A stretch of 64,000 nucleotides of DNA from assembly GCF_030546695.1 (NCBI RefSeq), contig NZ_JAUOTP010000003.1, positions 62,001-126,000 of the forward strand, given 5' to 3'. This DNA comes from Sphingomonas natans. Lineage in GTDB: Bacteria > Pseudomonadota > Alphaproteobacteria > Sphingomonadales > Sphingomonadaceae. A program made the translations under genes and the position numbers. Shown piece by piece: positions 3,636 to 58,755 of the stretch (position 1 is the stretch's first letter; each line of letters begins with the position of its first letter). Below the pieces are notes generated by a model. That model was given only the letters and a program-made list of their open reading frames with translations, was not told the DNA's origin and ran no database searches.

Positions 3636-3646
3636 GGAATCTGTCC

Positions 3647-36694: not shown

Positions 36695-37011
36695 GACCTG
36701 GCCTCATTCCTAGGAACTATCGTCGCCCGATAAGGGCACTCCGAGCAGATTTATTGTCGCATTAAGCCCTTTCTTGTCTTCGAATGACGGGACGGAGGCA
36801 GTTCGCTCGTATGAGCGCTGACCGTGAACAAGCGGGGCGGTCCGCTCCATCGGCAGCGCCGACCCGAAAGGGTGTTGCCAGTCAGCCTGGTCCGACAATT
36901 CGCGCACATCGCGTCCAATAAACGCCAGCACCGCTACTTTAGCACTTCGCCGCACAAATTCCGGCGACATTCCTCTCGCGCCGGTCAACGCTGTAGTCCC
37001 GCGGAGGTTTG
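36695..37011. other. intergenic stretch between divergent hydrolase and GMC genes
   Basis: A 92-codon minus-strand frame (36988-36710) has no recognised domain. The stretch should hold both promoters; I cannot point to clear boxes. Confidence 0.4.
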
Positions 37012-38724
37012 ATGATCATCGATCTTGAGAAGGCGAGTGAAAACATCACGCTTCATACAGAGATCTGCATCGTCGGATCAGGCGCCGCTGGCCAGACGAT
37101 CGCGCGCCGTCTGCTTACGCTGGGTCACGAGGTCACTTTGCTCGAAAGCGGCGGGACCGATTACGAACTGGGAACAGCGGGTCTTAACGACGGAAAGATC
37201 GTCGGGCAGGCATACTACCCCCTCCGAGACGCGCGCCTCCGCTTCTTCGGCGGGACCACCGCCATTTGGGGAGGTCGCTGCGCCGAACTCGAACCGATCG
37301 ATCTGGAGAAGCGCGAGTGGATCCCCCATTCCGGCTGGCCTCTCGGTTGGCGCGAAATCCGTGACTATTACGAGGAGGCGCGGCCGTTGTTCGGGCAGCC
37401 GAACTGGCGGCCCGACATCAGCGACATGGTGGGCGCCGGGCTTACGATGCCTCCTTTCGACGAAGCACTCCTAACGACCCCCCTCTGGACGTTCGACACG
37501 AGCCTCAACCGATTTACTATAGGCCGTGCCGACGACATCGCCTCCCATCCGCGAGCCAGGATCGTCCTCCACGCCAACGTCACCAGACTACAGGCTAACT
37601 TGGAGGCAAGCTCCGTCCGTCGATTGATCGCGCGAACCATCGGAGGACGCCGCCTCGTCGTGCATGCCCGCGCAATCGTGCTTGCCGCAGGCGGCATAGA
37701 AACGCCACGACTGCTGTTGGCGTCACGGACAGAGATGCCGGGCGGGTTGGGCAATGGACACGATTTGGTCGGGCGCTTCTTCATGGAGCACCCGCACGCC
37801 CGCGGGGGGCGGATCGTGGGCGGCGCGGCGTGGCGGATGCTCAAGCTCTTCGCGCGTCGACATCGCATCGAGGGCCAGGACATGGCTGCGATGATCGCCA
37901 CAAGCCCGGCGCTGCAGCGCAAGCAGGGTCTTCTGAACTCCTCGCTCACGATCGTGGCCCGGCAACCCGAGGATGCGAGGAAATCTTTGGGGATGCGTAT
38001 CTATGACGGGATGAAACACGACATTCCACCCAACCGCGCGGGACGAGCCCTGTGGATGGGCGCCAAGAACTTCGCTTCCTCGGTCCAGCGCCATGTTGAT
38101 CCCGCTCGGCCCTGGGCTCTGTATAAGATGGGGCGTCTCGAGCTTTCGCTGCTGGTCCGCGCCGAACAAGCGCCGAACCGGGACAGTCGGATCACCATGA
38201 CGCGCGACGTCGATGTCGTCGGGATGCCGCGCGTCCAGCTAGACTGGCGCCTGACGGAGCTGGACAAGCGAAGCGTGATCGGACTGGTCGATGCGCTCGG
38301 TTCAGAGCTCCGTCGTCTTGGTCTGGGCCATGTCGAACGGGCGGAATGGCTAGATGATCCAAGACGTATTTGGCACAGCGACCCCCTCGTCTCGTCGCAC
38401 CCGCTAGGTGGTTATCACCACATCGGGACGACCCGGATGTCTTCCGATCCGCGCACGGGAGTCGTTGATCCGCACGGTCGTGTGCACGGCATCGCGAATC
38501 TCTACATCGTAGGATCGTCGACGTTCCCCACCTCCGGATGGGCGAACCCTACCGTCACGATCGCCGCCTTGGCCTTGAGGACAGGGGATCGGATCTCCGC
38601 CTCCTTGAAGCACCGCGAACAGCATCATCCAAGGCTTCAGGCCGCTTCGACCCGTTCGTCAGCTGGGGACAACCTTGGCCAACGCCCGATCGCACCTCGA
38701 ATGATGGCCGGCGGTGCCTCATGA
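37012..38724 (+). CDS. GMC-family FAD-dependent oxidoreductase
   Basis: 570 residues from ATG 37012, with GGAGG 4-5 nt upstream. The FAD motif is G22-S-G24-A-A-G27 in CIVGSGAAGQTIARR. The GMC C-terminal block has active-site residues in SSHPLGGYHHIGTTRM and SGWANPTVTIAALALRTGD. The FGGTTAIWGG segment (about residues 80-89) is the ADP/FAD-binding loop. No signal peptide is seen. These enzymes oxidise sugar or alcohol hydroxyls with a quinone, cytochrome or O2 as acceptor. It is followed by the OprB porin gene, so a carbohydrate substrate is likely. The last four bases overlap an ATG that is not the porin start I prefer. Confidence 0.88.
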   Translation: MIIDLEKASENITLHTEICIVGSGAAGQTIARRLLTLGHEVTLLESGGTDYELGTAGLNDGKIVGQAYYPLRDARLRFFGGTTAIWGGRCAELEPIDLEKREWIPHSGWPLGWREIRDYYEEARPLFGQPNWRPDISDMVGAGLTMPPFDEALLTTPLWTFDTSLNRFTIGRADDIASHPRARIVLHANVTRLQANLEASSVRRLIARTIGGRRLVVHARAIVLAAGGIETPRLLLASRTEMPGGLGNGHDLVGRFFMEHPHARGGRIVGGAAWRMLKLFARRHRIEGQDMAAMIATSPALQRKQGLLNSSLTIVARQPEDARKSLGMRIYDGMKHDIPPNRAGRALWMGAKNFASSVQRHVDPARPWALYKMGRLELSLLVRAEQAPNRDSRITMTRDVDVVGMPRVQLDWRLTELDKRSVIGLVDALGSELRRLGLGHVERAEWLDDPRRIWHSDPLVSSHPLGGYHHIGTTRMSSDPRTGVVDPHGRVHGIANLYIVGSSTFPTSGWANPTVTIAALALRTGDRISASLKHREQHHPRLQAASTRSSAGDNLGQRPIAPRMMAGGAS

Positions 38725-38903
38725 ATAATACGAAGCTCGTCCAAAAAGGCGTCTCGTGGCGACAATCCTCACAGCAATACCGGTGGCAGGCCACGCAGAT
38801 CATCCCTTCGACCCGGAATGTCTCGTTGAACCGACACCTCACCCATACGGTCGCCCCACCGCTCGTTCTTGATGGCGCCGGGGACGCCTTCGCAGTAGAT
38901 CGC

Positions 38904-40280
38904 ATGACACCGCGATTGCCCTGTCGCCGTCGGGCACAGTCAGCCATTTTAGTTCTCTCGGCATCGCTCTTGATAGGATGGAGCGGGACTGCTCTTGCTC
39001 AAAGCCGCGACGTTGTTCCCGATGCGAATCCCGACAGTTTGGCTGCAGATACGCAGGAACACGCGAGCGCGCCGCCGACGCTGACAGGCGAGTGGGGAGG
39101 CCTGCGGACCCGAATCAGGGACGCTGGCGTCGATTTGAACGCGTCCTACGTCAGCGAATTGGCGACGAACATCAGCGGGGGAGCGCGCAAGGACGCTACC
39201 GAGACGGGTCAGCTCGCGTTCGGCGCCGCGATCGACACAGAGAAGCTGTTCGGCCTGCGTGGTGGCTTGGTCCAGGCAAGCATCACCTATCGGCGCGGTC
39301 ACAATCTCACGGATCGAGCCGGATTGGGACTGCTCCAGCAGGTTCAGGAAGTCTACGGACGTGGACAGACCTGGCGACTGACGCGTCTGTGGTATCAACA
39401 GAGCCTCGGCGGCGGGGTCGATGTGAAGCTCGGGCGCATCCCTGGTGGGGGCGAGTTCAATGCCTTCTCGTGCGACTTCATGAATCTCAGCTTGTGCGGA
39501 GCGCCGGCGGGCAACCTCGCGGGTGACTACTGGTATAATTGGCCGATCAGCCAGTGGGGCGTGAGGCTCCGCATGAAGAAAACGCGCTGGTATGCGCAGG
39601 CCGGCGTCTACGAACAGAACCCGCGCAACCTCAACAACAGGTTCATCGTTGGTTACTTCCATGGCGCCAAAGGCGCACTCGTGCCAATGGAAGTGGGCTA
39701 CACGCCTCGGCTCGCCGCTGGCCTGCCGGGCATCTATCGGCTTGGCGCCTGGTATAATACCGCCAACGCCAACGACCTTCTGCTCGACGGGTCGCACCGC
39801 CCCTATGCCGTTACCGGACTGGCGCCATTGCGGCGGGACGGGCGCTACGGGGCCTATGTCATGCTCCAGCAGCAGATCACCGGAGCCGCGAAGCTCGACG
39901 CCAACGGCCAACCTAGCACCATCAAGGGACTCACGCTGTTTCTGAACATCACCCAGACTGACCGCCGGACGCAGCGGACGGACAACCAGATTTCAACCGG
40001 GCTATTCCTGACCGGTGCGATCGCCTTCCGCCCCCACGACGACATCGGGCTGGGTTTCGCGAGAACCAACGTAAACGGCCGTGCCGACCGCTCGGAAGGT
40101 CTCTCAGACCCGGGAACGCCGAGAGCGAAAGCAGAGTATGCCGGGGAATTCTTCTACAGTGTTCATCTCGCTCCTTGGCTGATCCTGCGCCCCAACTTCC
40201 AATACGTCCTTAACCCTGGCGGGCGGGCGGCACTACCGGACGTGGTCGTGCTCGGGCTCAAAAGCGCGATCACCTTCTGA
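38904..40280 (+). CDS. carbohydrate porin, OprB family
   Basis: 458 residues from ATG 38904, which starts the signal peptide (MTPRLPCRRRAQSAILVLSA...ALAQ). An earlier in-frame ATG at 38721 overlaps the previous stop (ATGA) but would place 61 extra residues before the signal sequence. The OprB pattern begins at LTGEWGGLRTRIRDAGVDLN and continues with KLGRIPGGGEFNAF through a 16-strand barrel ending in LKSAITF. It lets sugars across the outer membrane by diffusion. It is probably cotranscribed with the GMC gene and ended by the terminator at 40373. Confidence 0.9.
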   Translation: MTPRLPCRRRAQSAILVLSASLLIGWSGTALAQSRDVVPDANPDSLAADTQEHASAPPTLTGEWGGLRTRIRDAGVDLNASYVSELATNISGGARKDATETGQLAFGAAIDTEKLFGLRGGLVQASITYRRGHNLTDRAGLGLLQQVQEVYGRGQTWRLTRLWYQQSLGGGVDVKLGRIPGGGEFNAFSCDFMNLSLCGAPAGNLAGDYWYNWPISQWGVRLRMKKTRWYAQAGVYEQNPRNLNNRFIVGYFHGAKGALVPMEVGYTPRLAAGLPGIYRLGAWYNTANANDLLLDGSHRPYAVTGLAPLRRDGRYGAYVMLQQQITGAAKLDANGQPSTIKGLTLFLNITQTDRRTQRTDNQISTGLFLTGAIAFRPHDDIGLGFARTNVNGRADRSEGLSDPGTPRAKAEYAGEFFYSVHLAPWLILRPNFQYVLNPGGRAALPDVVVLGLKSAITF

Positions 40281-40372
40281 TGTTGTTTTCATCAAAATCA
40301 TCGAGCGTGCAAAGTACGACCTTGGTCAAAAGCAGCTTCCCCTTCAGGCCGCACCCCTCCCCGGCCTGATCT

Positions 40373-40408
40373 GGCGTCGGGACGGTCCGCCGTCCCGACG
40401 CCCTTTTT
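40373..40408 (+). terminator. Rho-independent terminator after oprB
   Basis: A perfect 13-bp stem GGCGTCGGGACGG/CCGTCCCGACGCC (40373-40385 and 40390-40402) with a 4-nt loop is followed by C and TTTTT at 40404-40408. It lies 93 bp after the porin stop and 35 bp before the convergent lyase stop. It is the strongest terminator seen in the window; it has no T run in the minus direction. Confidence 0.85.
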
Positions 40409-40442
40409 GATATTGAAGGCTGTGTAAGGTAGGGCTGGCGAT

Positions 40443-41718
40443 CTAGCTCTTGGGAACGGACGTAGGCAACGTGGCGCCCCGTCCCGGCCAACGCTCATAA
40501 AGAAGCTGCGTCTCCGCGCTCGGTTCAGGTGCAGCGTAGTCGGAGGACCGCCAAGCCCAACCTGCGCGCGTCATCAAGTCAGACAGCTCTCCCTTTGGCA
40601 CGCTGAGCTCAGGATATGGCCAACGCTCCGGCTTCTGCACGTAGCCTGCCAGGAGATCGGTAGCGGAACGAAGACCTCGGCCTCTGCCGTCACGATAGTC
40701 CCATAGATCCGTTCCAAGACACGCAGCGACGTCAGCAACGTCATATGCCGCGGTTAGCGCGTAAATCGAGTAGTGGAGGCTCCGCGTCCGCGCCAGCTCG
40801 CGAGGCAGGCGCCCATCACGCGCGAACTGCACAGAGATGCGACGCTTCGGAAATGCCTGCACGACCGCGCGGGCGACATCCGGTTTGCCCGCAAACAAAG
40901 CGAAACGGGTCAGCTGGGCATCGAACCACATCCCGTGATTATTGTTCGCTGCCCGCTCCGCGCGTCCATTCGGGCTCTGCTGCATCCAGTCGACGTATCG
41001 CGAAAACCATTCCTCAAGACCGGCCTGTTCCTCGGGAGCGAGGGCGGCACTCGATTTCATCAGGCCGATCGCCTCGACAACGCGGAGAAGGCGACTGGTG
41101 TCCAGCACCCCCTCCTTCCGACCCGACACTCTGCCCGGCACCCCTTGCGCATAGTCCATGTTCGGGTTCATCCGGGTGCTTGGATCTAGAAACCAAGCGC
41201 GGATAAACCTGGCGGCCGCCTCGGCATACCGGCGCTGGCCAGTATAGTGGTAGGCAAGCGCCAGGTCCGCGACGGCATTGCTCATCGCGTCCATGCGCGT
41301 CGCGTCGAACGCGTTGGTGGCGCGCTCCGGGTTCACCTCGCCGTCGCGGCGGATGTAGGGGCGCTGAAGATTCGTCTTGTCCGGCCACCAATATGGACCA
41401 ATGCTCATGTAGTCGTGACGGTCCCCCGATGGTGGCAGGCTGCTTTTGTCGACGACGCTGAAACGCTTCAAGCCCATCGCCGCGTCGGCACGCGCTACCA
41501 GTTCGGCGACAGTGCGAGCGAGCGCCGGATCGTTTGCCTGGCGCGTCTTCAGAACCGCCAGCTGATCCTCCTTCCAAATGATCAAGCTCGGACCGCCGAG
41601 ATCGCCGTTGAGGTCTGCGGCACAGCGATCAGAGACGATTGCTCCGTAGGCTCGTGTAGAGCCATACGGCGCGACGCCCAGTTCCAATGCCGCGATAACA
41701 AAAAAGAGTGAGGCGCAT
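40443..41718 (-). pseudogene. alginate-lyase family protein (PF05426), frameshifted in signal peptide
   Basis: The body (41687-40443, 414 codons) has the family blocks YWWPDKTNLQRPYIRRDGEV, the catalytic-type Asn-His in ERAANNNHGMWFDAQ, and LHYSIYALTAAYDVADVAA. The natural start is the ATG at 41718, which overlaps the TGA of the TonB receptor (TGATG). From it the frame reads MRLTLF, then leaves frame at a run of six T (plus-strand A at 41700-41705). With five T it would read MRLTLFVIAALELGVAPYGS, a good signal peptide in frame with the body. So one base is extra, either a real mutation, a reversible tract or a sequencing error. The family cleaves uronate glycans by beta-elimination in the periplasm. 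Confidence 0.8.
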
Positions 41719-44648
41719 CAAAACACCACACGCACACCGGCATAGTAGGTTGGGCCGCTAGCGCTGACCTCCGTAACGCTATCGTATCCCCCTTTGAAGA
41801 ATATGTCGCGGGTGCCCGTAATGTTCTGGGCCTGAGCCTTCAGCTGGACGTGATCGTTGATGTTGTATTGGACCGACACGTCTAGGAAGTCGGATCCCCG
41901 AACAGAGCGGTTGGTGCTGCTGTTCGGCTTGTAGTAGTTCGACCGGTAGCGGTAGAATCCACGTATCGAGAAGCCATACTTCTCCCACCAGATCGATGCG
42001 TTCGCATTGTATTTCGACGAACCAATCAGATTTGCCGGCTCCACGTAAGGCGCCAGCGTCGACGGATCCGGATACGCGAAGTTGGCATGGACGTAATTGA
42101 AACCGCCGCTGACCCCGAAGCCGTCGAGGGGAGCGGGCAACCAAGCCAGTTGATGGCTTCCACTCACCTCCAGTCCATAGAGGCGGCGCGTGGTGTCATC
42201 GTTTATCGGGGCAATCGAGCTGATAGTGATCGGCGCACCGTTCACTACCAATGTGGTCGAACGCGGCGCGCTCCTCGCGATCACCGCGCCCTTCAGCCAT
42301 TTATAGTAGGGCGCCAAGGAAAACGATGTGTCCTTATTGAGATAGAGCTCCATCGAGACGTCCGCGTTCCAACCCATCAAAGGCTTGAGCGCCGGATTGC
42401 CCGTGGTGCTGTTTGCAAGTGCATCCTGAACGGTTGTCGCGGTCGAGCTGGCGGCACCGATGGCGACACCGGCCCCGAAGCTCTCGATGCCCGACCGGGA
42501 GAGAGACCGGTATCCCGCAAGGCGCAACTTCACTTTCTCAGAGACGTCAAACGCTATGTTGGCGCTCGGGAGCCAGTAGGCATATCTACCCTTCTGCGTG
42601 GACTCCACGACGGTCGCCCCTGCGACGGGATTGACCACGAAGAGCCCGGAATTTGGATCGATCACGACCGAGACGGGCACGTTAAAGCCCTTGGAATCGA
42701 TAGTGGTGCGGACGTAGCGCACACCCGCGTTTCCGGACACGGGAACGTCCCCGACCTGGCTCCGAAAATTGGCCATCGCGTAGCCCGCCCAAATGCGCTC
42801 GCGCACGTTGATGTCGCTTGGATCCCGCGTCTCTGTCGGAAAGGGCAGTCCCTCCGAGCCGCCCGTAAATGTCCGATAGAGGCAGTCGTTGTCGAAGGTG
42901 GCCCAAGAGGAGATGTTCGTCTTGGAATCGTGCATGAAGTCGTTTGTCGGGAAGGACGTGCGGCACTGCTGATTGCCGGCGACCGAGAGCGCAGGCGCAA
43001 TGGTGTCGAGATCCGTGTTAGCAGCGTTGTCGTTCGTGCGCCGATGCGAGGAATACCGTCCGCCGACCTTCAGCGACTGGAGGAAATCGCCATCGAGGTC
43101 GTAGGACCCGTCGACGCGGCCCGCGTAGATCTTATCCCGTCGGTTCGTCGCGAGCCGGTTCCGGGCATATCCCGCCAATGTGTAGTTAGCGGGATCGTTG
43201 ATGTTGAAGTTGCCGAAGGACACGCTTGGGACGGCATCCCGCGTATTATCGAAGACATAGGCTACGCGGGTGTTGGAGCGCAGTCGGGTTGCCTTCTGCG
43301 TCTCTGTGCGATGCGACCCCGAATATGAGGCGTCGGCCACGAGCGTCAGCTGGTCGTGCTTCCAATTCACGGTCCCGCCGCCGCCGACATACGTCTCATT
43401 CCTCTGGCGACGCTCGTTCTGTGTTTCGAGGTTGGAGTTGCCAGCGTATCGGAGCAGCGCCCCGGCGGAGTCGTCGTTTCCGACACCACCGATAATCTGC
43501 GGCTGGATGCCGCGAGTGGCCTCCGTGATGGAGAAGATGAAGCGTCGCTCCAGGCTGCGCCGCTTCGAATATTGTCCGTCGAGCGAGATATCGAGTTCCG
43601 AGGTCGGTTTCCACTCGAGGGCGCCGATGAGCGCGTCACGCTTCTCGTTGGTGACATTTGCGCGCCAGGCCCGGCTGCTCGTCGCGAAGTAGCGGCCTCC
43701 CACCGTGCTACCAGTTGGTGCGGTGACGGCGTTACTGCAGTTCGTGGCACTCGTGCCGGGAGCATTCGCCGACGTCGTGCACGGCACGAATGCCGAATTT
43801 GTCGTGTAGTAGTCCTCGGGCGCGGTAGTGTCCTGACGCTGGTAGCCTATGCTAACGCCGATATCGCCGATCCCGGTCTCGAACTGGTCGGTGTAGGACA
43901 GGTTCGCGCGGTAGCTGGCGCCAGTCCTTCCAAGATTGTCGTTTTCTTGCGGCGAGTAAGCCCCACGCACCTCGGCCACAATGCGGCGCTTGCCGTAATC
44001 GAGCGGCTTCAGCGACCGGAGGTCAATGATACCGGCCGAACCGCCCTCGACGAAGTCCGCCTCCTGCGACTTGTAGACGAGGACGCCGTTGACGAGTTCG
44101 GAAGGGAATTGCTGGAACGCAACCGAGCGGTCGGCGCCGGCGCTGCTGACTTCGCGCCCGTTGAACGTCGCGAAACTCAGCGTCGGCCCAAGACCGCGCA
44201 CAGAGATCTCGTTGGCGTTGCCCTTGAAGCGATCCGACGTCACGCCGGTGATCCTCGTCAGTGTGTCACCCACCGAATTGTCGGGCAGAGCACCTATCTG
44301 GTCATTGACGATGCCGTCGAGAATGACGGCTGCGCTGCGCTTCGTCTCCAACGATGAGCGTTGAGTCGCGCGCGCTCCGCTGATGATGATTTCATCCTCT
44401 TTTGAAGCGTTTGCAGTAGTGGCGACGCCCTGGGCCGGCATCGCCGCCGTTTCGGGTTCAGCTACCGGGTTGGGTTGCACCGACGAAGACTTGATGCTCC
44501 CTTCGACAGGCGAACTGGCGGCGGCCCCCGGGGACTGCGCGTTGTCCACCGTCTGCGCAATCAACGGCGCCGTGACGCCTACCATGGAGGCAAGCAGCAT
44601 AACTCGCAGGGCAAGTTGCCGCTGCGGATCCGACCTGGTGTCCGTCAT
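41718..44648 (-). CDS. TonB-dependent receptor, large carbohydrate type
   Basis: 976 residues from ATG 44648, chosen by the ribosome binding site GGGGAG 7 nt upstream; the frame is open to 44855 but that part is not a signal sequence. The signal peptide includes LALRVMLLASMVGVTAPLIA. A long Ser/Ala/Pro linker precedes the TonB-box region DEIIISGARATQRSSLETKR, the plug (ADFVEGGSAGIIDLRSLKPL) and a large barrel. Length and plug style fit the caulobacter/sphingomonad class of oligosaccharide receptors. It shares an operon with three lyase-like proteins, so it probably imports the oligouronides they make. Confidence 0.94.
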   Translation of the reverse strand: MTDTRSDPQRQLALRVMLLASMVGVTAPLIAQTVDNAQSPGAAASSPVEGSIKSSSVQPNPVAEPETAAMPAQGVATTANASKEDEIIISGARATQRSSLETKRSAAVILDGIVNDQIGALPDNSVGDTLTRITGVTSDRFKGNANEISVRGLGPTLSFATFNGREVSSAGADRSVAFQQFPSELVNGVLVYKSQEADFVEGGSAGIIDLRSLKPLDYGKRRIVAEVRGAYSPQENDNLGRTGASYRANLSYTDQFETGIGDIGVSIGYQRQDTTAPEDYYTTNSAFVPCTTSANAPGTSATNCSNAVTAPTGSTVGGRYFATSSRAWRANVTNEKRDALIGALEWKPTSELDISLDGQYSKRRSLERRFIFSITEATRGIQPQIIGGVGNDDSAGALLRYAGNSNLETQNERRQRNETYVGGGGTVNWKHDQLTLVADASYSGSHRTETQKATRLRSNTRVAYVFDNTRDAVPSVSFGNFNINDPANYTLAGYARNRLATNRRDKIYAGRVDGSYDLDGDFLQSLKVGGRYSSHRRTNDNAANTDLDTIAPALSVAGNQQCRTSFPTNDFMHDSKTNISSWATFDNDCLYRTFTGGSEGLPFPTETRDPSDINVRERIWAGYAMANFRSQVGDVPVSGNAGVRYVRTTIDSKGFNVPVSVVIDPNSGLFVVNPVAGATVVESTQKGRYAYWLPSANIAFDVSEKVKLRLAGYRSLSRSGIESFGAGVAIGAASSTATTVQDALANSTTGNPALKPLMGWNADVSMELYLNKDTSFSLAPYYKWLKGAVIARSAPRSTTLVVNGAPITISSIAPINDDTTRRLYGLEVSGSHQLAWLPAPLDGFGVSGGFNYVHANFAYPDPSTLAPYVEPANLIGSSKYNANASIWWEKYGFSIRGFYRYRSNYYKPNSSTNRSVRGSDFLDVSVQYNINDHVQLKAQAQNITGTRDIFFKGGYDSVTEVSASGPTYYAGVRVVF

Positions 44649-44719
44649 TCTCATTCTCCCCTGTTTGCCCGATCCGGGCTTCTGACTGTTGTGCCGACCT
44701 AGCTCTAACCCGAGGCCGG

Positions 44720-46594
44720 CTATCGATATGTAAGGCTCCAGCCGACAGACAGCGGGCTCGCCATGGTCGCAGCGCCACGTTCGCACAGTGCTCGGCTCGA
44801 GAGTGGGCCGGTCGGCGCGCGGTAGGGTGCCGCGTTCACCTCGGCCGCCCTGCACCTCTGGAAGCCCTGCACATCGAAGCGCGTGACTTCCCCCTCCCCA
44901 TAACTGATCGCACCGGCCGCCTGAACGACCGGCTTCGAAGAGAAGCTCGCAAACTCGAGTGAGATGTTCTTAACCTTGAGCGGCTCGGCCGGAACCATCC
45001 GATCCGTGCGGGTGATATGACCGGGGCTGAAGACATAACGCGTCTCGAAGGAGAGCCGTTTGTCCTTCACCGCATCGTCACCACCGATGCGATCCGCGGC
45101 GTCCTGCCGATAGGTCACGATCGTGGTAATGCCGTTTAGCTCAACGGTCACATCCCGAAACCAGGCGAGCGGCATCAGCACCGTGCCATCTTGTAGCGTG
45201 ACCTGCGGCACGAGCTGGGGGAAGGTCGCGTCAGCGGAACCGGACAGCATTCCCGTGGAGGCGGGGATCGGAAAGTAGGCGTTGTGCATATGCTGCCCGT
45301 CTGCCCCATTGATGAGCGGCAGTCCGATGACGTGTCGTCCATCCCGCAGAGTGAGCAGGGCGCGGTCGTAATCGCCCTTGGCGAACCAGGTGAATGTCGA
45401 TTTGGGAAGGCGATCAAGCCAAGCCGCATAGCCTGGATCGGTCGGCTTGCTTCTGAAGCCGAGATCGTTCCATTCCTCGTTCGTATAGACATACTGACGA
45501 GCAAGGCTCAGGTTTTCGCCGAGAATGCGATACTTCTCGCGATAGCCGTCAGTGCGACGCCCTTTGTCCCACATGTTCACTGATCCCGTGTCTGCATCGA
45601 TCCAGAAATCGACGTATCGGGCAGCGATCCGAGAGGAGAACGCGTAGGCCATCCGCTGTTCCTCCGGAGTGAGCACTCCGAGTTCGGCGGCTGCGGTCAT
45701 GACCTCCAGAAAGCAGGTCTCACCGTAGGGCCCGATGCTACGTCCATACTCGAAGCCCTCACCGGTTAAGTTGAAGCGCGGCAGCATGAGATCAACTGAC
45801 TTGCGCAACCACTCCCGCACTTCGGGGGGCGGGGTCCTGCCGGTTTCGATCAGTCGCTGTGCGATCTCCCCGATCAGAAGCACCGAGTAGCGGTCGAAGC
45901 GACCTTTACCGTCCGTCTCGTCCGCGAAGCCGAATGCGCCCGAGTATTTGCGGTAATGGTCGAGCATCTTCTCGAACAGGGCGTCACTGCCGCTTGCATC
46001 CTCCCAGCCGAGAAGCATGCGCAACCGTGCGATCGAAAAGGCCACGCCGAAATAGTTGTTCGGCAGCTCGATGAGGGTCAGGTCGTCGGTGCGGACGAAA
46101 CGTCGCCAGTCTAGCTTCTCGCGCAGCTTTCGCTGGGTTTCAGCGCTCACGGCAGAGTCAAGCAGTCCCGCCTTCTTCAACGAATAGAGTGCAGAAATGT
46201 AGTAATACATGCCCCAAGAGTCGTTATCGTCCTCGACAGTCATGTCGGCGATTTGTCGGAAGCCCGCCAAGTATGTCTGAAAACGGGGATCGGAATGCGG
46301 CGTATCGAGGAGCAGCAGGGCGAATGCGCCTGCGATCTTTCCCGGCAGGAACTTGTCATGGGCATCGAACACCGGAACCCCGTCCAGCCGCATGGCCCGC
46401 TTCTCGCGCAACGTTTGATCAAGAAGAGCCGCAAGCTGGGGCATGAGACGGGTCCGGATCGTCACGTCCATGGGGGCCACGGTGCCGTAGACTGGGCCGT
46501 GCGGAGCCGCAGCGGCAGTCTCGGCAACGCCCGGCGTTCCTGAAGCCAGCATCACAGTCATCCCCACGAGTCGAAGAGATTTTGAACAAATCAT
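44720..46594 (-). CDS. secreted toroid polysaccharide-lyase-like protein
   Basis: 624 residues with a signal peptide (MICSKSLRLVGMTVMLASGT...). The first about 380 residues are helical and read like an (alpha/alpha)6 toroid: SWGMYYYISALYSLKKAGLL, then ELPNNYFGVAFSIARLRMLL and EYGRSIGPYGETCFLEVM. The rest is beta-rich (RHVIGLPLINGADGQHMHNA). The layout recalls heparinase II/III- and chondroitin-lyase-like polysaccharide lyases, in which Asn, His and Tyr act in a beta-elimination; candidate residues are in LPNNY and GPYGE. I cannot place it in a defined PL family. It lies between two TonB receptor-linked lyase genes. Confidence 0.75.
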   Translation of the reverse strand: MICSKSLRLVGMTVMLASGTPGVAETAAAAPHGPVYGTVAPMDVTIRTRLMPQLAALLDQTLREKRAMRLDGVPVFDAHDKFLPGKIAGAFALLLLDTPHSDPRFQTYLAGFRQIADMTVEDDNDSWGMYYYISALYSLKKAGLLDSAVSAETQRKLREKLDWRRFVRTDDLTLIELPNNYFGVAFSIARLRMLLGWEDASGSDALFEKMLDHYRKYSGAFGFADETDGKGRFDRYSVLLIGEIAQRLIETGRTPPPEVREWLRKSVDLMLPRFNLTGEGFEYGRSIGPYGETCFLEVMTAAAELGVLTPEEQRMAYAFSSRIAARYVDFWIDADTGSVNMWDKGRRTDGYREKYRILGENLSLARQYVYTNEEWNDLGFRSKPTDPGYAAWLDRLPKSTFTWFAKGDYDRALLTLRDGRHVIGLPLINGADGQHMHNAYFPIPASTGMLSGSADATFPQLVPQVTLQDGTVLMPLAWFRDVTVELNGITTIVTYRQDAADRIGGDDAVKDKRLSFETRYVFSPGHITRTDRMVPAEPLKVKNISLEFASFSSKPVVQAAGAISYGEGEVTRFDVQGFQRCRAAEVNAAPYRAPTGPLSSRALCERGAATMASPLSVGWSLTYR

Positions 46595-46677
46595 TATGTT
46601 ACCTTCTGCTGCGACACGCTTTGTCCAACTGTTATTGTCTCGATTATCCTCGAGCTATTGCTGCCCTGAGCAGAAAA

Positions 46678-47853
46678 TCAGATCCACAGCACTGGCTGAC
46701 GAATGGGGAAGTTTCGGATGATCTCCGGTGTCTCCGGATCTGCATCAAGGCCTTGCCAGAGCTTCAGATAATCCGATCGACCCAGCGCGAGTCCTCCAAA
46801 CAGGAGTGAGACCTGCCGCACTGGGAGCTTGTCGAAGAATTCGACGTCCGGCTTGGCGGGCCAGCGTCGCTTGTCCGCTATTGCTGGCGCCATATAGGCG
46901 AGTGCCTTGGCGAGCCCGCGGCCGTCCGCCGTGGCGAAATGCCACAGATCGTCGTCCGCACTCGACGCTATGGTCGCGAGCGTCGACAGGACGTCGAGAT
47001 TGAACAGCGAATAGCTGTAGGGTTTCGTCCGGGCGAGCTCCAGCGGCTGGCGTCCATCGGCTTCGACCTGATTGGGGATGAGGACCTCGCGGAACGACCG
47101 CGCCTGTGCCATGACCAGCTTCCGATCGCGCACCAGCCTCGCGAACGCAGCCACCTGAAGCGCATAGCAAGAACCGTGGTTGTTTTTTTCGTCACTTTCG
47201 TCGAGGCCGTTCGGCGAGGTCGTCAACCACTCGAGGTAGCGTGCAAACCATTGTCTGACGGCGGCGCCTTGAGCGGCAGGATAGGCAGACCCCGCTCTCT
47301 GCAAGACGAGCGCGGCCTGCGCGACCTCCACCAGATGAAGCGTGTCGATCACGCCGATCCCCCGCCCCGTATTGACGCCGATGATCGCCTGGGCATGATC
47401 CAGATTGGGCGCCATGCACGTGGCGGGGTTCACGAACCAGGCGTCGAGATGCTCCGCGGCGTGACGTGCGTAGCGCGGATCCGCGGTTAGCTGCCACGCG
47501 GCCGCGAGCGTTGGCATCTGGACGCTGAAAGAGATTAGCGCCTGGCGATGTTCGTCGAAGCGATCTGGATTGGAATAGCCATCCCGGCGGATGTAGGGGC
47601 CGCCCGGTCGCTCGGGGTCCGGCCACCAGTAGTCTCCTTCCGAATAATAGTCATGCGCGCGCCCCGGACTACGCGTTGCACGGCGGGCAGTAACGGTAGT
47701 CGGGCGGAGCGAAAGAAAGCGGTTTGCAGCCGCCACCACGCGCGGCCTCTCGCGCTGGCGGATGGCCTCTCGGTCAGGCTCGGACGCGGCCGAAACCGCC
47801 CCCGCCGTGAAGGGCGCCAGCGCCAACGCTGTCAGAAGGGTGCGGCGGTCCAT
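46678..47853 (-). CDS. alginate-lyase family protein (PF05426), possibly Tat-exported
   Basis: 391 residues. The N-terminus MDRRTLLTALALAPFTAGAV has a twin-arginine and may be a Tat signal. Family blocks are GDYWWPDPERPGGPYIRRDG, the Asn-His signature SDEKNNHGSCYALQVAAFA, and PYSYSLFNLDVLSTLATI, equivalent to those of the frameshifted paralogue at 40443. It probably eliminates at uronate residues in the periplasm. It lies 18 bp below the TonB receptor stop and 83 bp above the toroid protein start. Confidence 0.85.
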   Translation of the reverse strand: MDRRTLLTALALAPFTAGAVSAASEPDREAIRQRERPRVVAAANRFLSLRPTTVTARRATRSPGRAHDYYSEGDYWWPDPERPGGPYIRRDGYSNPDRFDEHRQALISFSVQMPTLAAAWQLTADPRYARHAAEHLDAWFVNPATCMAPNLDHAQAIIGVNTGRGIGVIDTLHLVEVAQAALVLQRAGSAYPAAQGAAVRQWFARYLEWLTTSPNGLDESDEKNNHGSCYALQVAAFARLVRDRKLVMAQARSFREVLIPNQVEADGRQPLELARTKPYSYSLFNLDVLSTLATIASSADDDLWHFATADGRGLAKALAYMAPAIADKRRWPAKPDVEFFDKLPVRQVSLLFGGLALGRSDYLKLWQGLDADPETPEIIRNFPIRQPVLWI

Positions 47854-47871
47854 CGGCTGAATTTCACGCTT

Positions 47872-50325
47872 TCAAAAATTGAAGCCAAGCCGAACACCGT
47901 AGTATCTCTCGCTATCTCGGCCGGGCTTGAAGGAGATCGCGTTGGTCGGGTTCACGGCCAACGTTGGGTTGGTATTCCAAACCACCTCTCGTCCCTTGGT
48001 CAGCACGTAGTTCTGATCGAAGGCGTTGTTCACAAACACCGTCACCTTGAAGTGATCGGTGCTTACGCCAACACCGAAATTGGCGAGCGCGTATCCCTTC
48101 TGCTCGGCGTCCGGATCGCCCAGCAGGCTGAAGTTCACTCCGGTCTGATAGCGCATGCTGGCGTTGATGAAGCCGGTGAGGCCGTCCGTGAGACGACGTT
48201 CGTATTCACCGGAAAGGGCTGCGGTCCACTTCGGCGCATTCGGGAGGCGCGCGCCTGACAGGTCCTGCACTCCGCCTACGCAGCCCTGAGCTGCAGTCTG
48301 CCGTGAAAAGCAGGCAGCGCCGGGAAAATCATTGATCTTGGCGATGTTGTAGGCGCCGTTCAAATTAAGGGTCAGCCCCGGCACGAAGCGGGCAGCCAGT
48401 TCCATCTCCACGCCCTTCGATGTGACCTTCCCCAGACTGTTCAGGATGTTCTGGTTGGTGACCTCGTCTCGGCTTTGCGCCTGAAACCCAAGATATTCTT
48501 CGTAGAAGCCGGTCATGTTCCATGTCAGCCGTCCCCCGAGGAGAGTAGCCTTGAAGCCGCCCTCGAACGCATTGCTGTGCTCAGGCGCGATCGGCTGGCG
48601 TGCGGCGATCCCGTCCGCAGTGGGAACGCCGGCGAACTGCCCGGTCGTCAAAGGCGTGCGCACGGTGAAGGTGCTGGTCAGATCGTAGGCCAGGCCCTTG
48701 TAACCTCGCGCATAGTGGCCGAACACCATGATGCCCGGTGAAAAGCGGTATTGGATCGCCGCACTCCCGGTCACGACATTGTCATGGTCGCACGTCGAGA
48801 TCGGGACCGTAGCCGTCCCACTTTTCGTGTCGCACTTCGGGTTTCCGTAGGTGATGTTGTTACCAAAATCGGTGAAGTTGTAGCTCAGCTCCTCCCTGTG
48901 AAGCCGGCCGCCACTGATCACCGTGAGCTTGTCGGTCAAATCATAGGAGAGCTGTCCGAACAACGCGTAGGTCGACTGCTTTGAGCGCGAATCGTAGTAG
49001 GAATAGGCGATCGTGTTGGTGGACGGCAGGTTCGCAATGCCATTGAAATTGCCCAGCGAAAGCGATCCTCGGGTGAAGTCGCGGATCGAGGCAGTGTTGC
49101 TGTAGAACAGGCCACCCACATAGCGGAACCGACCAGAGGAGGGGGAGGTAAGCCTCACTTCCTCGGTCACGGTGCGGATCGTGAAGAAGCCACCGTTAGT
49201 CGAGCCTCCAAACGGGAGGCGTGGGTCGCTCAGCTGAAAGTTGTAGTCGCTGGAGTCTGTGTCCTGCCTATCAATCAGATGATATCGATCGTAGGACGAG
49301 ATCAGCATCACCGTTTGGCCGCCGGACAGATCGTGCGCAATCTTCAACCCGGAGCCGTAATCCGTCGAGTTGCCCTTCGCATCGGTATCTAAGCGGGTCC
49401 GCCGATTGTCCGGCGAGGGCACGATCGAGCCGAGCAGCGTGGATTGTGGGACGTTCGCGCGCGCGAAAGTCACACCCGGACTGAGGAAGTAGAGCGCCGG
49501 CGCGCAGCAGGACGCGCGCGTTCGGACCACGTATGGAATGAGCGTTACGGTCCAATCGGCCGAAGGTGTCCAGACCAGCTTGCCCCGCAGCGTCAGATCC
49601 GACTGGCCGTTCAGCCAGTTCCCCGTCGTGTCGTTGTATAGCGTCCCTCGATACTTGCTGTAGTTGCCGGTCAGGCGGCCGCTCAACGTCTCCGTGATCG
49701 GGCCGGAGACCGACGCCTGAATCCGCCGCTCATGATCTGATGTGATGAGGCCCTGACCGCCTAGCGTGAAGTCCTTCGTCGGTGCAGCGGTGGTAATGTT
49801 GACCACCCCTGCCGAGGCCGCCTTGCCGAACAGCGTGCTTTGCGGGCCGCGCAGCACCTCGATCTGAGCGACGTCGGTCAGGGCTGTGAATGCCGCCGCC
49901 TGGAAGGCTTGCGGAATGTCGTCCGCCACCACGGCAACGCTGGGCTGCGTCGAGATCGAGAACGCGTAAGTCCCGATGCCGCGAATGTTGATGCTGTTGT
50001 TCGCAGGTTGACTCGTTTTCGAAATCGTCAGGGATGGCGCGACGCGAACGACGTCGTCGAAGTCGCGAACGTTTGCGCGCTCGAGACCGGCGGCCGTCAC
50101 CGCGAGGACCGATGCCGGAACGTTCTGAACGTTCTCCGACCGCTTGTTAGCCGTCACGACGATCTCCTCCAGCCCCCCGCCTGCCGAAGCCTGGCTGTCT
50201 CGAATGCCCTGAATCTCCCCCGCGTTCCCAACCCCATCGACGTGCTGCTGAGCGACGCCGGGACTAGCCTGAAGGATGCACAATAGGCCCAAAGGTGCCA
50301 CTGCGCGCGATGCGTGCCGCCCCAT
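47872..50325 (-). CDS. TonB-dependent outer-membrane receptor
   Basis: 817 residues. Signal peptide (APLGLLCILQASPGVAQQ), TonB box EEIVVTANKRSENVQNVPAS, plug (IEVLRGPQSTLFGKAASAG) and a barrel ending in YGVRLGFNF. AGGAGAGGG precedes the ATG. It is the first gene of a five-gene minus-strand operon with two PF05426 proteins, a toroid lyase-like protein and a second receptor. It is shorter and of a different subtype from the 976-residue receptor, so the operon may import two size classes of ligand, or a siderophore-like and a glycan-like one. Confidence 0.94.
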   Translation of the reverse strand: MGRHASRAVAPLGLLCILQASPGVAQQHVDGVGNAGEIQGIRDSQASAGGGLEEIVVTANKRSENVQNVPASVLAVTAAGLERANVRDFDDVVRVAPSLTISKTSQPANNSINIRGIGTYAFSISTQPSVAVVADDIPQAFQAAAFTALTDVAQIEVLRGPQSTLFGKAASAGVVNITTAAPTKDFTLGGQGLITSDHERRIQASVSGPITETLSGRLTGNYSKYRGTLYNDTTGNWLNGQSDLTLRGKLVWTPSADWTVTLIPYVVRTRASCCAPALYFLSPGVTFARANVPQSTLLGSIVPSPDNRRTRLDTDAKGNSTDYGSGLKIAHDLSGGQTVMLISSYDRYHLIDRQDTDSSDYNFQLSDPRLPFGGSTNGGFFTIRTVTEEVRLTSPSSGRFRYVGGLFYSNTASIRDFTRGSLSLGNFNGIANLPSTNTIAYSYYDSRSKQSTYALFGQLSYDLTDKLTVISGGRLHREELSYNFTDFGNNITYGNPKCDTKSGTATVPISTCDHDNVVTGSAAIQYRFSPGIMVFGHYARGYKGLAYDLTSTFTVRTPLTTGQFAGVPTADGIAARQPIAPEHSNAFEGGFKATLLGGRLTWNMTGFYEEYLGFQAQSRDEVTNQNILNSLGKVTSKGVEMELAARFVPGLTLNLNGAYNIAKINDFPGAACFSRQTAAQGCVGGVQDLSGARLPNAPKWTAALSGEYERRLTDGLTGFINASMRYQTGVNFSLLGDPDAEQKGYALANFGVGVSTDHFKVTVFVNNAFDQNYVLTKGREVVWNTNPTLAVNPTNAISFKPGRDSERYYGVRLGFNF

Positions 50326-50740
50326 AACCCTCTCCTGATCTTGTTTTATTGACGAGATTGGTCGGCACTTTAGACACCGGTGTCAACGACCCAAAAGGGG
50401 GGTGCGGATCACAAAAAACCCAGCTATTATCTGTCAGGGCCTTCCCGTCCTCTTTCCAATATTTACGGCAACTTCGTTTCAGGTCGAGCACGTCTGCTAC
50501 CGAAAACGAATGCGTTGACCGCTCGTCCGGCTTGATCCGGATAGAGATAGATCCACACAAGAACCGACCCCTTCGGCACTAAACCTTAGTATGTGCGATG
50601 CGCCAACTGCCGTATATCTTTCGGACGAGCACCCAATTTCATATCCGATGCAGTCAAGCGCGCAGCTTGCTCGCGCTATCTCTTTGGAGGGTCGAGCAGC
50701 TGGAGCCCATCTGTTCGCGGTTTGGAACTGGGAGAAAGCA

Positions 50741-53134
50741 GTGGACGACACGCCCGATCGAGAGCCCGGTGGCTTGAGCAAACCCTACCTATGGTGCGTA
50801 GCCGCACTGACGATGGCCCTTGGTGCGCTATCCGTCGCCGGGGGAATCTGGCTCCTTTTGCTGGGCGGGAGCCCCTACTATCTCGTTGTCGGCGCCGCCC
50901 TCGTGATCGCCGCGGTGCTGATCGGGCGGGCGCAATCGCTTGCGACTTGGCTGTTCGCGTTGATCATAGTCGCCACCGTCCTGTGGTCGCTGCTCGAAGT
51001 CGGTCTGGACTGGTGGGCGCTCGTGCCGAGAGGCGACCTCATCTTCGTCATCGGTCTCCTGCTGCTGCTTCCCCCGGCGATGCGGCGGCTCCACCCGGAA
51101 ACGCGGTGGGCATACGCTGCCATGCCTCTCGTCGCGTCGCTTTCCATCGCCGCCGTCGTCGGATGCCTGGCAATTGCACGCGATGTCCACGACGTCCCCG
51201 GATCCCTGCCCGGCATACGCCAGGGCCCCACTTCCGACACCGCCCTCATGGCGGACGGCGATTGGCCAGCCTATGCCGGCACGTGGCATGGAAACAAATA
51301 TTCGCCACTTGCGCAGATCAATCCATTGAACGTCGGTAAGCTCAAGGTCGCGTGGGCCATCCACACCGGGGACACGAAACGCGCGGGCGACCCGGACGAG
51401 ACGACCTACGAGGTCACGCCCATCAAGGTCGGAAACACCCTCTACATGTGCACGCCGCACAACGTGGTGCTGGCGTTGGATCCTGATACGGGCCGGGAGC
51501 TGTGGCGGTTCGATCCGAAAGTCCAAGTGCCGAAGCACGTCCAGCACCTTACGTGCCGTGGCGTGTCATGGTTCGACGCCTCAACTACCGGCAAGGTTTC
51601 GTCAGAGTGTCCGCAACGCCTGTTCGTCGCCACCAATGATTCCAGGCTAATAGCGCTGAACCCACGGAGCGGCACCGTCTGCCGCAGCTTCGGCACGAAC
51701 GGGGTGGTGAGCCTACTGGAAGGCCAGTCCCACTACAACGATGGCTGGTATCAATACACGTCTGCTCCTTTGATCGCGCGCAACCTGGTCGTCCTCGGTG
51801 GCGCGGTGTTCGACAATGCCTCGGTCGATGTGCCTGCGGGCGTGATCCGCGCCTATGACGGCATAACAGGCAGGCTGGTGTGGAACTTCGATCCGGGTCG
51901 GCCCAACGACACGACGCCGCTGAAGGCCGGCGCTCACTACACTCCATCGACACCGAACATGTGGAGCACACCAGCAGCCGACGAACGTCTCGGCCTGATC
52001 TACCTTCCGATCGGCATGGGCGCCGTCGACCAGTGGGGTGGCCGCCGCCCAGCCACGACAGAGCGTTTCGCAACGTCCGTGCTAGCGCTCGAGATCGAGA
52101 CCGGCCGACTGCGCTGGAAGTATCAAACCGTCCATCACGACCTGTGGGACATGGACGTGCCCGCCCAACCCGCGCTGGTGGACCTCACACTCCCGGGCAA
52201 GGGGCGCGTTCCGGCGCTCGTCCAGTCGACCAAGACGGGGAACCTCTTCGTTCTCGACCGCCGGACCGGACTTCCGCTGCTTCCGGCTCCGGAACGAGCA
52301 GTTCCACAGGGGGCGGCTCCTGGCGACTGGGTTTCGACGACGCAACCGTTCTCGTCGATGAACCTCATGCCAAAGCTCGCAACCGAGCGGAAGATGTGGG
52401 GCGCGACAATGGTCGATCAACTGTGGTGCCGCATTCGCTTCAAGAGCCTTCGTTACGAGGGGCCCTTTACGCCACCGTCCCTGAAGGGCACGCTCGTATT
52501 CCCCGGCAATTTCGGCGTGATGGACTGGGGTGGCATGTCGATCGATCCCGCCCGTCAGGTCGCCTTTGCGCATCCCAACTACATAGCGTTCGTCGATCGC
52601 CTCGTTCCGCGTGCCGAAGGTGGGTCGACCGGCTCCGGCGGTCCAGCCGGCGGGTCAGACAGAAGGGGCTCGAGCGAGAAAGGTTACAATCCCAACACGG
52701 GCGCGCCTTTCGCCGTCGATATGAACCCTTTCCTCTCGCCGCTCGGGCTGCCGTGTCAGCAGCCGCCATGGGGCTATGTCGCGGGCGTTGACCTGGTTTC
52801 GGGCAAGATTGCCTGGCAACACCGGAACGGCAACATCCGCATGGAGACGCCACTTATCCCCCTGCCCTTCACGCTCGGGGTGCCTTCGTTAGGCGGACCT
52901 ATGATGACGGCAGGGGGCGTTGCGTTCATGTCCTCAGCGATAGACGACTACGTTAGGGCGTATAACGTAAGCACTGGCAAGGTCCTTTGGAGCGCAAGCC
53001 TTCCCGCGGGCGGGCAAGCCACGCCGATGACCTATCTCGGAAGAAACGGCCGCCAGTATGTGATTGTGGTCGCCGGCGGCCATGGATCACTCGGCACGAA
53101 ACTGGGAGACAACGTCATCGCCTATGCGCTTTGA
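50741..53134 (+). CDS. gcd: PQQ-dependent membrane-bound glucose dehydrogenase
   Basis: 797 residues from GTG 50741, with GGGAG 6 nt upstream. That length equals the usual size of Gcd (E. coli about 796), while upstream starts add 31-50 non-conserved residues. Five N-terminal transmembrane helices (about 15-145) are followed by the periplasmic PQQ beta-propeller: GDWPAYAGTWHGNKYSPLAQ, YMCTPHNVVLALDPDTGREL and NLFVLDRRTGLPLLPAPERA. It oxidises aldoses to aldonolactones and passes electrons to ubiquinone. No pqq synthesis genes are in view. It is divergent from the receptor gene at 50325 and may share its regulation. Confidence 0.93.
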   Translation: MDDTPDREPGGLSKPYLWCVAALTMALGALSVAGGIWLLLLGGSPYYLVVGAALVIAAVLIGRAQSLATWLFALIIVATVLWSLLEVGLDWWALVPRGDLIFVIGLLLLLPPAMRRLHPETRWAYAAMPLVASLSIAAVVGCLAIARDVHDVPGSLPGIRQGPTSDTALMADGDWPAYAGTWHGNKYSPLAQINPLNVGKLKVAWAIHTGDTKRAGDPDETTYEVTPIKVGNTLYMCTPHNVVLALDPDTGRELWRFDPKVQVPKHVQHLTCRGVSWFDASTTGKVSSECPQRLFVATNDSRLIALNPRSGTVCRSFGTNGVVSLLEGQSHYNDGWYQYTSAPLIARNLVVLGGAVFDNASVDVPAGVIRAYDGITGRLVWNFDPGRPNDTTPLKAGAHYTPSTPNMWSTPAADERLGLIYLPIGMGAVDQWGGRRPATTERFATSVLALEIETGRLRWKYQTVHHDLWDMDVPAQPALVDLTLPGKGRVPALVQSTKTGNLFVLDRRTGLPLLPAPERAVPQGAAPGDWVSTTQPFSSMNLMPKLATERKMWGATMVDQLWCRIRFKSLRYEGPFTPPSLKGTLVFPGNFGVMDWGGMSIDPARQVAFAHPNYIAFVDRLVPRAEGGSTGSGGPAGGSDRRGSSEKGYNPNTGAPFAVDMNPFLSPLGLPCQQPPWGYVAGVDLVSGKIAWQHRNGNIRMETPLIPLPFTLGVPSLGGPMMTAGGVAFMSSAIDDYVRAYNVSTGKVLWSASLPAGGQATPMTYLGRNGRQYVIVVAGGHGSLGTKLGDNVIAYAL

Positions 53135-56290: not shown

Positions 56291-56500
56291 CTAGAGCCCG
56301 ATCGTTCTGCCGGCCTCGATCAGCGCGGCGAAGATGAAGACGAAAAAGGCGAGGTCCACAACTGGTCGCTGGGCGACCAAGCGATAGAACCCAATGCGGG
56401 AAAGCACAGTGGTCGCGACGCCGCATGCGCCCAACGCGACCAGGCCCACCAGGAGCAGCTTCGGGAAAAAGACTCCGAAGATGGAAATCTCGCCGATCAT
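56291..56500 (-). CDS. DUF1656 small membrane protein (AaeX-like)
   Basis: 69 residues starting MIGEISIFGVFFPKLLLVGL, with two membrane helices and the conserved RPVVDLAFFVFIFAAL end. This family always accompanies AaeAB-type efflux pumps. Its ATG overlaps the FUSC stop by four bases. Its role is unknown; it may help pump assembly. Confidence 0.88.
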   Translation of the reverse strand: MIGEISIFGVFFPKLLLVGLVALGACGVATTVLSRIGFYRLVAQRPVVDLAFFVFIFAALIEAGRTIGL

Positions 56501-58527: not shown

Positions 58528-58755
58528 GCGGTAACTCCGGATCACCCCGGTCCGTGCGCGAGAGCCCTCTTCGCGAGGGGTATGCGCGAGGCTCGGCGAA
58601 TGGATCGGCGAGGCCGCACCCGATTGGGTAATGGCGGTTTGAGCCACAGGACATAAAATGGGGAGCCGCGCGGATCATCGATCAGCGGCGCGTTGAGCGA
58701 ACCGGGCCTGCCGGTAAAAGACCGCTTTGATCCGAGGAAATACCGCGAGGGTATC

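Follow-up and report, generated by a model that had tools for sequence, protein, structure and literature searches.

Microbes open polymers of sugar acids with polysaccharide lyases (PLs), for which CAZy counts 44 families, fewer than half of them studied in function, structure and mechanism (PMC11848413, excerpt). Members of the toroid lyase superfamily use a catalytic Asn and Tyr, often with a His from the beta domain (PMC11848413 and PMC12088678, excerpts), as exemplified by N238, Y291 and H444 in PL33 (PMC11848413, excerpt), N192, Y246 and H401 in PL35, and N240, Y294 and H424 in PL12 (PMC12088678, excerpt). For PL38, activity has been described on glucuronan (CUL-I, TpPL38A), alginate (BoPL38, Aly38A) and hyaluronan and chondroitin sulfate (RiPL38) (PMC13027841, excerpt). 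Two cellouronate lyases, CUL-I and CUL-II, are known from the alphaproteobacterium Brevundimonas sp. SH203, whose genome paper reports one PF05426 gene, names no CUL-II gene, and carries the words "exo-type cellouronate lyase" in the title of its reference 2 (PMC5477187). CUL-I is an endo-lyase of a novel family according to a title in another reference list (PMC13027841, excerpt), and the authors of an engineered mutant claimed it to be, to their knowledge, the first lyase exolytic on glucuronan (PMC4765187, excerpt). Here we describe a locus from Sphingomonas natans, located in a 64,000-nucleotide stretch of contig NZ_JAUOTP010000003.1 (positions 62,001 to 126,000; hereafter the window, to which all coordinates refer). 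Its core is a run of five minus-strand genes at 40443-50325 encoding two TonB receptors, two PF05426 proteins (lyases a and b) and a protein with a predicted toroid fold (the toroid protein).

Our analyses indicate that this run is probably a TonB-dependent utilization system for a D-glucuronate-containing polysaccharide, with the toroid protein as the third of its lyases. The run would provide the outer-membrane and periplasmic part of the system, its enzymes presumably being exported. The two PL38-type lyases would cut the chain by beta-elimination. The toroid protein would act as the third lyase through an Asn180-Tyr236-(His435) center like that of PL33, PL35 and PL12 and, beside its two PL38-type partners, may work on oligomers or at the ends of the chain. 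Import of the products would be the task of the two receptors. Further degradation would fall to two proteins from a cluster on contig C11 of the same genome, where a GntR regulator gene adjoins those for a DUF4861 protein and an unsaturated uronyl hydrolase of family GH88. We expect the substrate to contain D-glucuronate and the genes to be co-regulated.

The initial annotation of this region, made from the sequence alone, had called the toroid protein lyase-like without placing it in a defined PL family. No sequence family was found for it here either: the protein had no match in Pfam, NCBIfam or the PDB sequences (phmmer, E<=1), and none of seven family members had a Pfam match at E<=5. The three weak NCBIfam matches of the family each came from a single one of these seven, and the family profile recovered only two weak, unrelated TIM10 matches and no PL33 chain from the PDB sequences at E<=5. 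The comparison with PL families relied on Pfam and NCBIfam models and on solved PDB members (8r72 and its kin are in the PDB structure library), and it revealed no sequence homology to solved members of PL35, PL8, PL12, PL17, PL21 or PL39, nor to any Pfam domain.

A structure prediction had been suggested for this product. The AlphaFold2 model, built from seven sequences (pLDDT 78.2, pTM 0.82), consists of helices at 42-395 followed by strands at 399-623. Foldseek against the PDB returned 66 matches at E<=0.001 and 1014 at E<=10, and the best 50 of the 1014 comprised 49 uronate polysaccharide lyases and one human enzyme, DS-epi1. The top match was 8r72 (PL33; E 4.1e-12, TM-score 0.52, 12% identity), and PL33, PL35 and PL8 ranked ahead of PL17. 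A separate model, made for a Burkholderia-type member and of lower quality (pLDDT 67.3, pTM 0.74), also found PL35 and PL33 first, with 46 lyases in its best 50; the remaining four were DS-epi1, two mannosidase rows and a putative glycosyl hydrolase. The model of the toroid protein shows both domains of the (α/α) toroid plus beta-sheet architecture known from the PL33, PL35, PL8, PL12 and PL17 lyases. The protein is predicted to belong to a known lyase superfamily, fits none of the families tested within it, and is a candidate for a new lyase family. Two other identities were rejected, namely a remote PL38 (hhalign probability 1.6%) and a phage or viral depolymerase, for which no relative was found in viral contigs (pattern-based scan) or phage records (tblastn).

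The presence of DS-epi1 as fold match 11, an enzyme that has its fold and catalytic residues in common with PL33 (PMC11848413, excerpt), raises the question of whether the toroid protein, instead of being a lyase, might be a uronyl C5-epimerase or have some other activity compatible with this fold. We consider this quite unlikely, given that the other 49 of the best 50 matches are lyases, its partners in the operon resemble lyases and the cassette linked to it is a catabolic one.

A lyase role is also consistent with the conserved residues. Asn180 and Tyr236 are invariant in all 11 aligned members, as is His213, and the Asn180-Tyr236 spacing of 56 residues compares with 53 in PL33 and 54 in PL35 and PL12. 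His435 is found in six of the six alphaproteobacterial members and lies 36 residues past the start of the first beta strand. Matched by order and secondary structure, and not by superposition, Asn180, Tyr236 and, in the alphaproteobacteria, His435 are likely arranged in the same order as the catalytic triad of PL33, PL35 and PL12 and form a putative active center.

The two PF05426 proteins were assigned using PDB matches and catalytic residues. Both have 3nfv as their best PDB match (E 2.6e-83 for lyase a, 6.9e-62 for lyase b), an entry whose deposited name is only "alginate lyase", and both match 8bdq (E 3.5e-63 and 4.8e-40). The entry 1hv6, which we take to represent PL5 (A1-III type alginate lyase), matches lyase a at E 1.6e-5 and has no counterpart among the seven matches of lyase b at E<=1; PL5 was rejected for both, the match to 1hv6 being far weaker than that to 8bdq (lyase a) or absent (lyase b). 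The 8BDQ structure is a PL38 enzyme (PMC12088678, excerpt). The catalytic His243 and Tyr298 of BoPL38 (PMC13169297, excerpt) align with His251 and Tyr306 in lyase a and with His226 and Tyr281 in lyase b, and by these sequence comparisons both proteins are PL38-like. They are the only two PF05426 matches in their genome. Lyase b is 60-62% identical to the PF05426 protein adjoining the toroid gene in another genome of the family, G394, and lyase a is 56% identical to the one adjoining a receptor-1 relative there. The PF05426 protein next to the Asticcacaulis toroid gene lacks the catalytic His in our alignment. The start region of lyase a (41687-41720, minus strand) has an ATG that overlaps the receptor-1 stop and is out of frame with the lyase body, with a run of six Ts between them; read from the in-frame TTG, the protein has no signal peptide by eye, which may be real or an assembly error.

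The gene neighborhoods of toroid relatives provided a link to uronate catabolism. Six alphaproteobacterial toroid loci were compared (the window, L002, L004, L006, L014 and L015; see Table 1 for gene content), and in four of them PF05426, GH88, mannonate dehydratase or KduI genes occur near the toroid gene. A PF05426 gene is its direct neighbor in three (the window, L004 and L006), and GH88, mannonate dehydratase or KduI genes lie within the same ~20 kb in three (L002, L004 and L006). A further PF05426 relative in L077, a stretch neighboring L004 in G394, is 46% identical to an Asticcacaulis one, and L015 has a GntR-type relative beside its receptor that is 39% identical to a Hephaestia one. 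DUF4861 recurs near GH88 (L002, L006, L029, L061 and L075), the two being fused in Asticcacaulis, and it is a candidate accessory enzyme for unsaturated uronides.

The initial annotation had remarked on the absence of downstream pathway genes, and this absence is now partly explained. The GntR, GH88 and DUF4861 genes of the C11 cluster are related to those that stand beside a toroid or PL38-b gene (a relative of lyase b) elsewhere, and the genome has five GH88 matches and one UxuA-family match in all. Genome G569 combines a PL38-b relative, receptor, DUF4861, GntR and GH88 in a single cluster, and G323 has a similar one. Since these relatives keep PL38, receptor, GH88, DUF4861 and GntR genes together, the window genome appears to have this cassette split between two sites. 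In the G569 cluster a 549-residue protein (L061, 10522-12171) lies between the PL38-b relative and the receptor; it had no Pfam match at E<=1e-10, and it resembles the BT3328 hyaluronan lyase family only weakly, scoring below cut-off.

In D-glucuronate catabolism, D-mannonate dehydratase works at a downstream step, and both ManD and UxuA fit this pathway; for this reason we favor D-glucuronate over the sugars of alginate. In an alginate locus, the PF05426 proteins would be alginate lyases like BoPL38 and Aly38A, and the toroid protein an oligoalginate lyase of the PL17 or PL39 kind. Two of the four PL38 enzymes named ahead of RiPL38 are indeed alginate lyases (PMC13027841, excerpt), and the fold matches include structures of PL17 and PL39. 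We nevertheless regard alginate as an unlikely substrate, as the cassette partners of the relatives are GH88, ManD or UxuA, and KduI, and the fold order puts PL33, PL35 and PL8 before PL17. A Pfam scan of the 28 open reading frame (ORF) products of the window found no PL7-, PL15- or PL17-type lyase, in agreement with the initial annotation as regards PL7 and PL15; this search covered the window and not the rest of the genome. Fold, families and the cassettes of relatives together argue for the view already put forward there, that the system probably cleaves a uronate glycan and imports the product in a manner unlike a standard alginate locus.

If the substrate does contain D-glucuronate, it may be a heteropolymer (hyaluronan- or chondroitin-like, gellan-like, or another plant or microbial polymer) and not the homopolymer glucuronan. 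The nearest folds are those of hyaluronan, heparosan, chondroitin and gellan lyase families (PL33, PL35 and PL8), RiPL38 is active on hyaluronan and chondroitin sulfate (PMC13027841, excerpt), and an Akkermansia PL38 was tested on glycosaminoglycans (GAGs) together with a GH105 enzyme (PMC11790493, excerpt). The related cassettes also hold GH2, GH3, GH28, a sulfatase and the protein that is weakly like hyaluronan lyase, below cut-off, and the GH2 of C11 is LacZ-like. Nothing decisive speaks against a heteropolymer; the accessory enzymes vary from locus to locus. We see it as a serious possibility, somewhat short of an even chance.

Relatives of the toroid gene are rare. Counting the window genome itself, the gene was found in 1 of 7 genomes of the genus, 2 of 397 of the family, 3 of 385 in a class sample and 3 of 398 genomes sampled from the phylum; two of five genomes from the order of G541 had it. 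A pattern-based scan of GTDB contigs, which finds close relatives only, yielded one relative, in Hephaestia mangrovi (63% identical). Plasmid records held five, one in Asticcacaulis (53.7%) and four on Burkholderia-group replicons (33.7-34.9%), of which three were retrieved. In our alignment the Burkholderia-group relatives (L007, L008, L009, L016 and L017) are 35-38% identical to the toroid protein of the window, and they appear lipoprotein-like by eye.

Within the 397 family genomes, a PL38-b relative was present in 22 at E<=1e-20 and in four at an identity of at least 56% (G000, G394, G323 and G383). Both toroid genomes are among these four, for which the chance under independence is 7.6e-5 (0.003 against the 22), a figure that involves two genomes only, one of them the genome where the search began, and from which shared descent was not removed. 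The co-occurrence itself speaks for the proposed system, and these limits on it are the first of several points that count against it. The TM-scores of the toroid model are only about 0.5 and some of its loops fall below pLDDT 50, including the one (432-439) that contains His435. The Tyr236-His435 spacing is 199 residues, compared with 153 in PL33, 155 in PL35 and 130 in PL12; position 435 is Asn in five of five Burkholderia-type members; and PL8 departs from the beta-domain rule in having its His within the toroid (N183, H233 and Y242 in chondroitinase AC; PMC12088678, excerpt). At L014 and L015 no match was found to the GH88, DUF4861, ManD, UxuA, KduI or PF05426 queries at E<=1e-10, and in the class sample PF05426 was not matched in the genomes concerned (G541 and G409). 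The domain occurs in 36 of the 385 genomes of that sample (32 over cut-off), and in one of its three toroid genomes, the window genome alone having both. When the neighbors in five Burkholderia-type loci were compared with window and cassette proteins, the toroid protein was the sole match. Two of the four PL38-b genomes (G323 and G383), and likewise G569, have no toroid match. In the window genome, the C11 cluster sits on a different contig from the five-gene run, its GH2 scores best, just below cut-off, as a LacZ-type beta-galactosidase, and the sole UxuA-family match scores 104.8 bits where the NCBIfam cut-off is 191, so that a mannonate dehydratase is not established there.

Table 1. Genes and features of the region in the window, and gene content of related loci
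Feature or locus	Position	Strand	Evidence or content
GMC oxidoreductase	37009-38724	+	ORF; GMC_oxred_C domain match
OprB porin	38538-40280	+	ORF start overlaps GMC gene; true start probably downstream
PL38-like lyase a	40443-41687	-	414 aa from TTG; PF05426, E 1.1e-87
TonB receptor 1 (TBDR1)	41718-44855	-	ORF of 1045 aa; ATG at 44654 probably the real start; TIGR01782, 515 bits (cut-off 310)
Toroid protein	44720-46594	-	624 aa; candidate polysaccharide lyase; no Pfam or NCBIfam family
PL38-like lyase b	46678-47853	-	391 aa; PF05426, E 2.1e-85; Tat-like (twin-arginine) signal peptide by eye
TonB receptor 2 (TBDR2)	47872-50325	-	817 aa; first gene of the run; PF00593 and PF07715
Palindrome GACACCGGTGTC	50373-50384		Perfect, 12 bp; upstream of receptor 2; weak candidate operator
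Membrane pyrroloquinoline quinone (PQQ) dehydrogenase	50591-53134	+	TIGR03074 (glucose/quinate/shikimate family), 1030 bits (cut-off 832.65)
L002, Hephaestia			GntR/FCD, GH88, DUF4861, ManD equivalog; two receptors by similarity
L004, G394			PF05426 adjacent, GntR/FCD, GH2, UxuA equivalog, aldose epimerase, sulfatase, GH28; two receptors by similarity
L077, G394 (neighboring stretch)			TBDR1-PL38a pair, 54% and 56% identical to that of the window
L006, Asticcacaulis plasmid			Receptor, adjacent PF05426, GH88-DUF4861, GH3, two KduI, GH2, major facilitator superfamily (MFS) protein, second PF05426
L014 and L015			TBDR2-type receptor (43-44%) directly beside toroid gene
L029, C11 cluster			GntR/FCD (49-52% to L002 and L004, 71% to G569); GH88 (51% to L002, 55% to L006, 61% to G569); DUF4861 (63% to L002)
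L061, G569 (no toroid match)			PL38-b relative, receptor, DUF4861, GntR, MFS, GH88 in one cluster
L075, G323			PL38 a and b relatives, TBDR1 relative (55%), GH88, DUF4861, GntR, 80% relative of Hephaestia ManD
L076, G383			PL38-b relative, 79% ManD relative, GntR

All eight genes named in the initial annotation are present in the ORF list, and their families hold in the Pfam and NCBIfam scans, the two PF05426 proteins included. The two TonB receptors are of different subtypes, as had been proposed: receptor 2 differs from the TIGR01782 type of receptor 1 and reaches no NCBIfam cut-off among the best 25 of its 27 matches. In L014 and L015 the gene immediately upstream of the toroid gene encodes a receptor that shares 43-44% identity with receptor 2; for receptor 1, the relatives next to PF05426 genes in G394 (L077) and G323 (L075) reach 54-57%. 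The suggestion that receptors and lyases alternate in one minus-strand operon stood in part, since they are interleaved in a single run that takes in five of the eight genes. In the order of transcription the run reads receptor 2, lyase b, toroid protein, receptor 1 and lyase a. The gaps between them are short (18, 83, 65 and 30 bases with the start of receptor 1 taken at 44654), which makes a single transcript plausible. A promoter scan gave 2 hits against 2.2 in shuffled sequences.

The plus strand carries the remaining three genes, which encode the GMC oxidoreductase, OprB and the PQQ dehydrogenase. Their physical adjacency had led to the proposal of an integrated system, in which lyases, porin, oxidoreductase and membrane dehydrogenase jointly oxidize the released sugars. 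Besides the opposite strand, a terminator-like stem of 13 pairs separates OprB from the lyase run (40373-40402; the scan in total yielded 8 sites of this kind, with 8.2 expected from shuffled sequences). Neither GMC nor OprB had a match in 20 stretches (14 related loci and six from the same genome; E<=1e-20, then E<=1e-5), and the PQQ dehydrogenase had no relative in the 14 related loci, its sole match being a paralog elsewhere in its own genome. An integrated system is therefore very unlikely, and the three genes are probably mere neighbors of the lyase run. Contig C5 of the genome (L028, 10789-13137) encodes another PQQ-dehydrogenase-like membrane protein near a GH88 gene; it is 41% identical to that of the window.

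The palindrome upstream of receptor 2, GACACCGGTGTC, occurs once in the 4,563,252 bases of the genome (naive expectation 0.27), and with up to two mismatches it has 6 matches in the window against 3.3 in shuffles. It was rejected as a shared regulon signal, being absent from 60 compared loci and having no second genomic copy. The G+C content of the window (61.7%) and of the lyase run (61.1%) is lower than in six other stretches of the genome (66.1-67.5%), and from 16 kb on (16001-64000) every 4-kb block lies at 0.59-0.63, again below those six; the region may have been acquired, given this difference. Elsewhere in the window, outer-membrane-factor-like and membrane-fusion-like proteins (by eye) adjoin a FUSC family protein (53982-58647, minus strand), and two genes at the start of L030 resemble this pair by eye. 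A row comprising a TonB receptor, a glyoxalase-domain protein, an FAD-binding protein, an amidohydrolase and a LysR regulator at 472-8768 perhaps represents an aromatic-compound pathway.

The toroid protein is of interest as a sequence-orphan lyase candidate with a nameable fold and likely catalytic residues, which makes it directly testable, and it might provide a natural end-acting enzyme for glucuronate polymers. Among the papers listed on the host genera and lyases, or on Sphingomonas polysaccharide utilization loci, we recognized none that describes such a system, and the matches listed for PL45, PL46 or novel PL families contained only unrelated work. The titles and abstract openings of the cellouronate and glucuronan lyase literature, a body in which most subscription papers fell outside our coverage, do not name a CUL-II gene. 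Going by the reference title mentioned at the outset, CUL-II is reportedly the exo-type enzyme. Our hypothesis is that the toroid family represents this enzyme. A fuller version, in which the toroid protein founds a new PL family and supplies the kind of gene so far lacking for the exo-acting glucuronan (cellouronate) lyase purified from Brevundimonas sp. SH203 alongside the PL38 endolyase CUL-I, with the Burkholderiaceae as a divergent branch that is without the beta-domain His and maybe of different chemistry, is speculative and rather unlikely.

Compared with the known systems, the closest structural counterpart is PL33 (BtPL33HA, 8r72; gellan and GAG lyases). The toroid protein resembles it in its modeled N-terminal (α/α) toroid and C-terminal beta-sheet domain, in an Asn followed by a Tyr at similar spacing and, in the alphaproteobacterial members, in a beta-domain His; it differs in its low identity, its modest TM-score and the lack of a profile match to any PL33 chain in the PDB at E<=5. 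The PL35 GAGases (8khv, 8khw) have the same fold at 9-11% identity, with a shorter Tyr-His stretch than the toroid protein. In GAGase VII the His is residue 397 and the beta domain starts at Met361 (PMC12088678, excerpt), and His435 of the toroid protein lies about as far in. PL38 is already known as a family, represented by the alginate lyase BoPL38 and by CUL-I of Brevundimonas sp. SH203; the PF05426 proteins of the window retain the His and Tyr of BoPL38, and the toroid protein is unlike PL38 by profile comparison. CUL-II of the same strain, likened here by description, accompanies a PL38 endolyase in an alphaproteobacterial host (PMC5477187), and the toroid protein would have a comparable role as an additional lyase.

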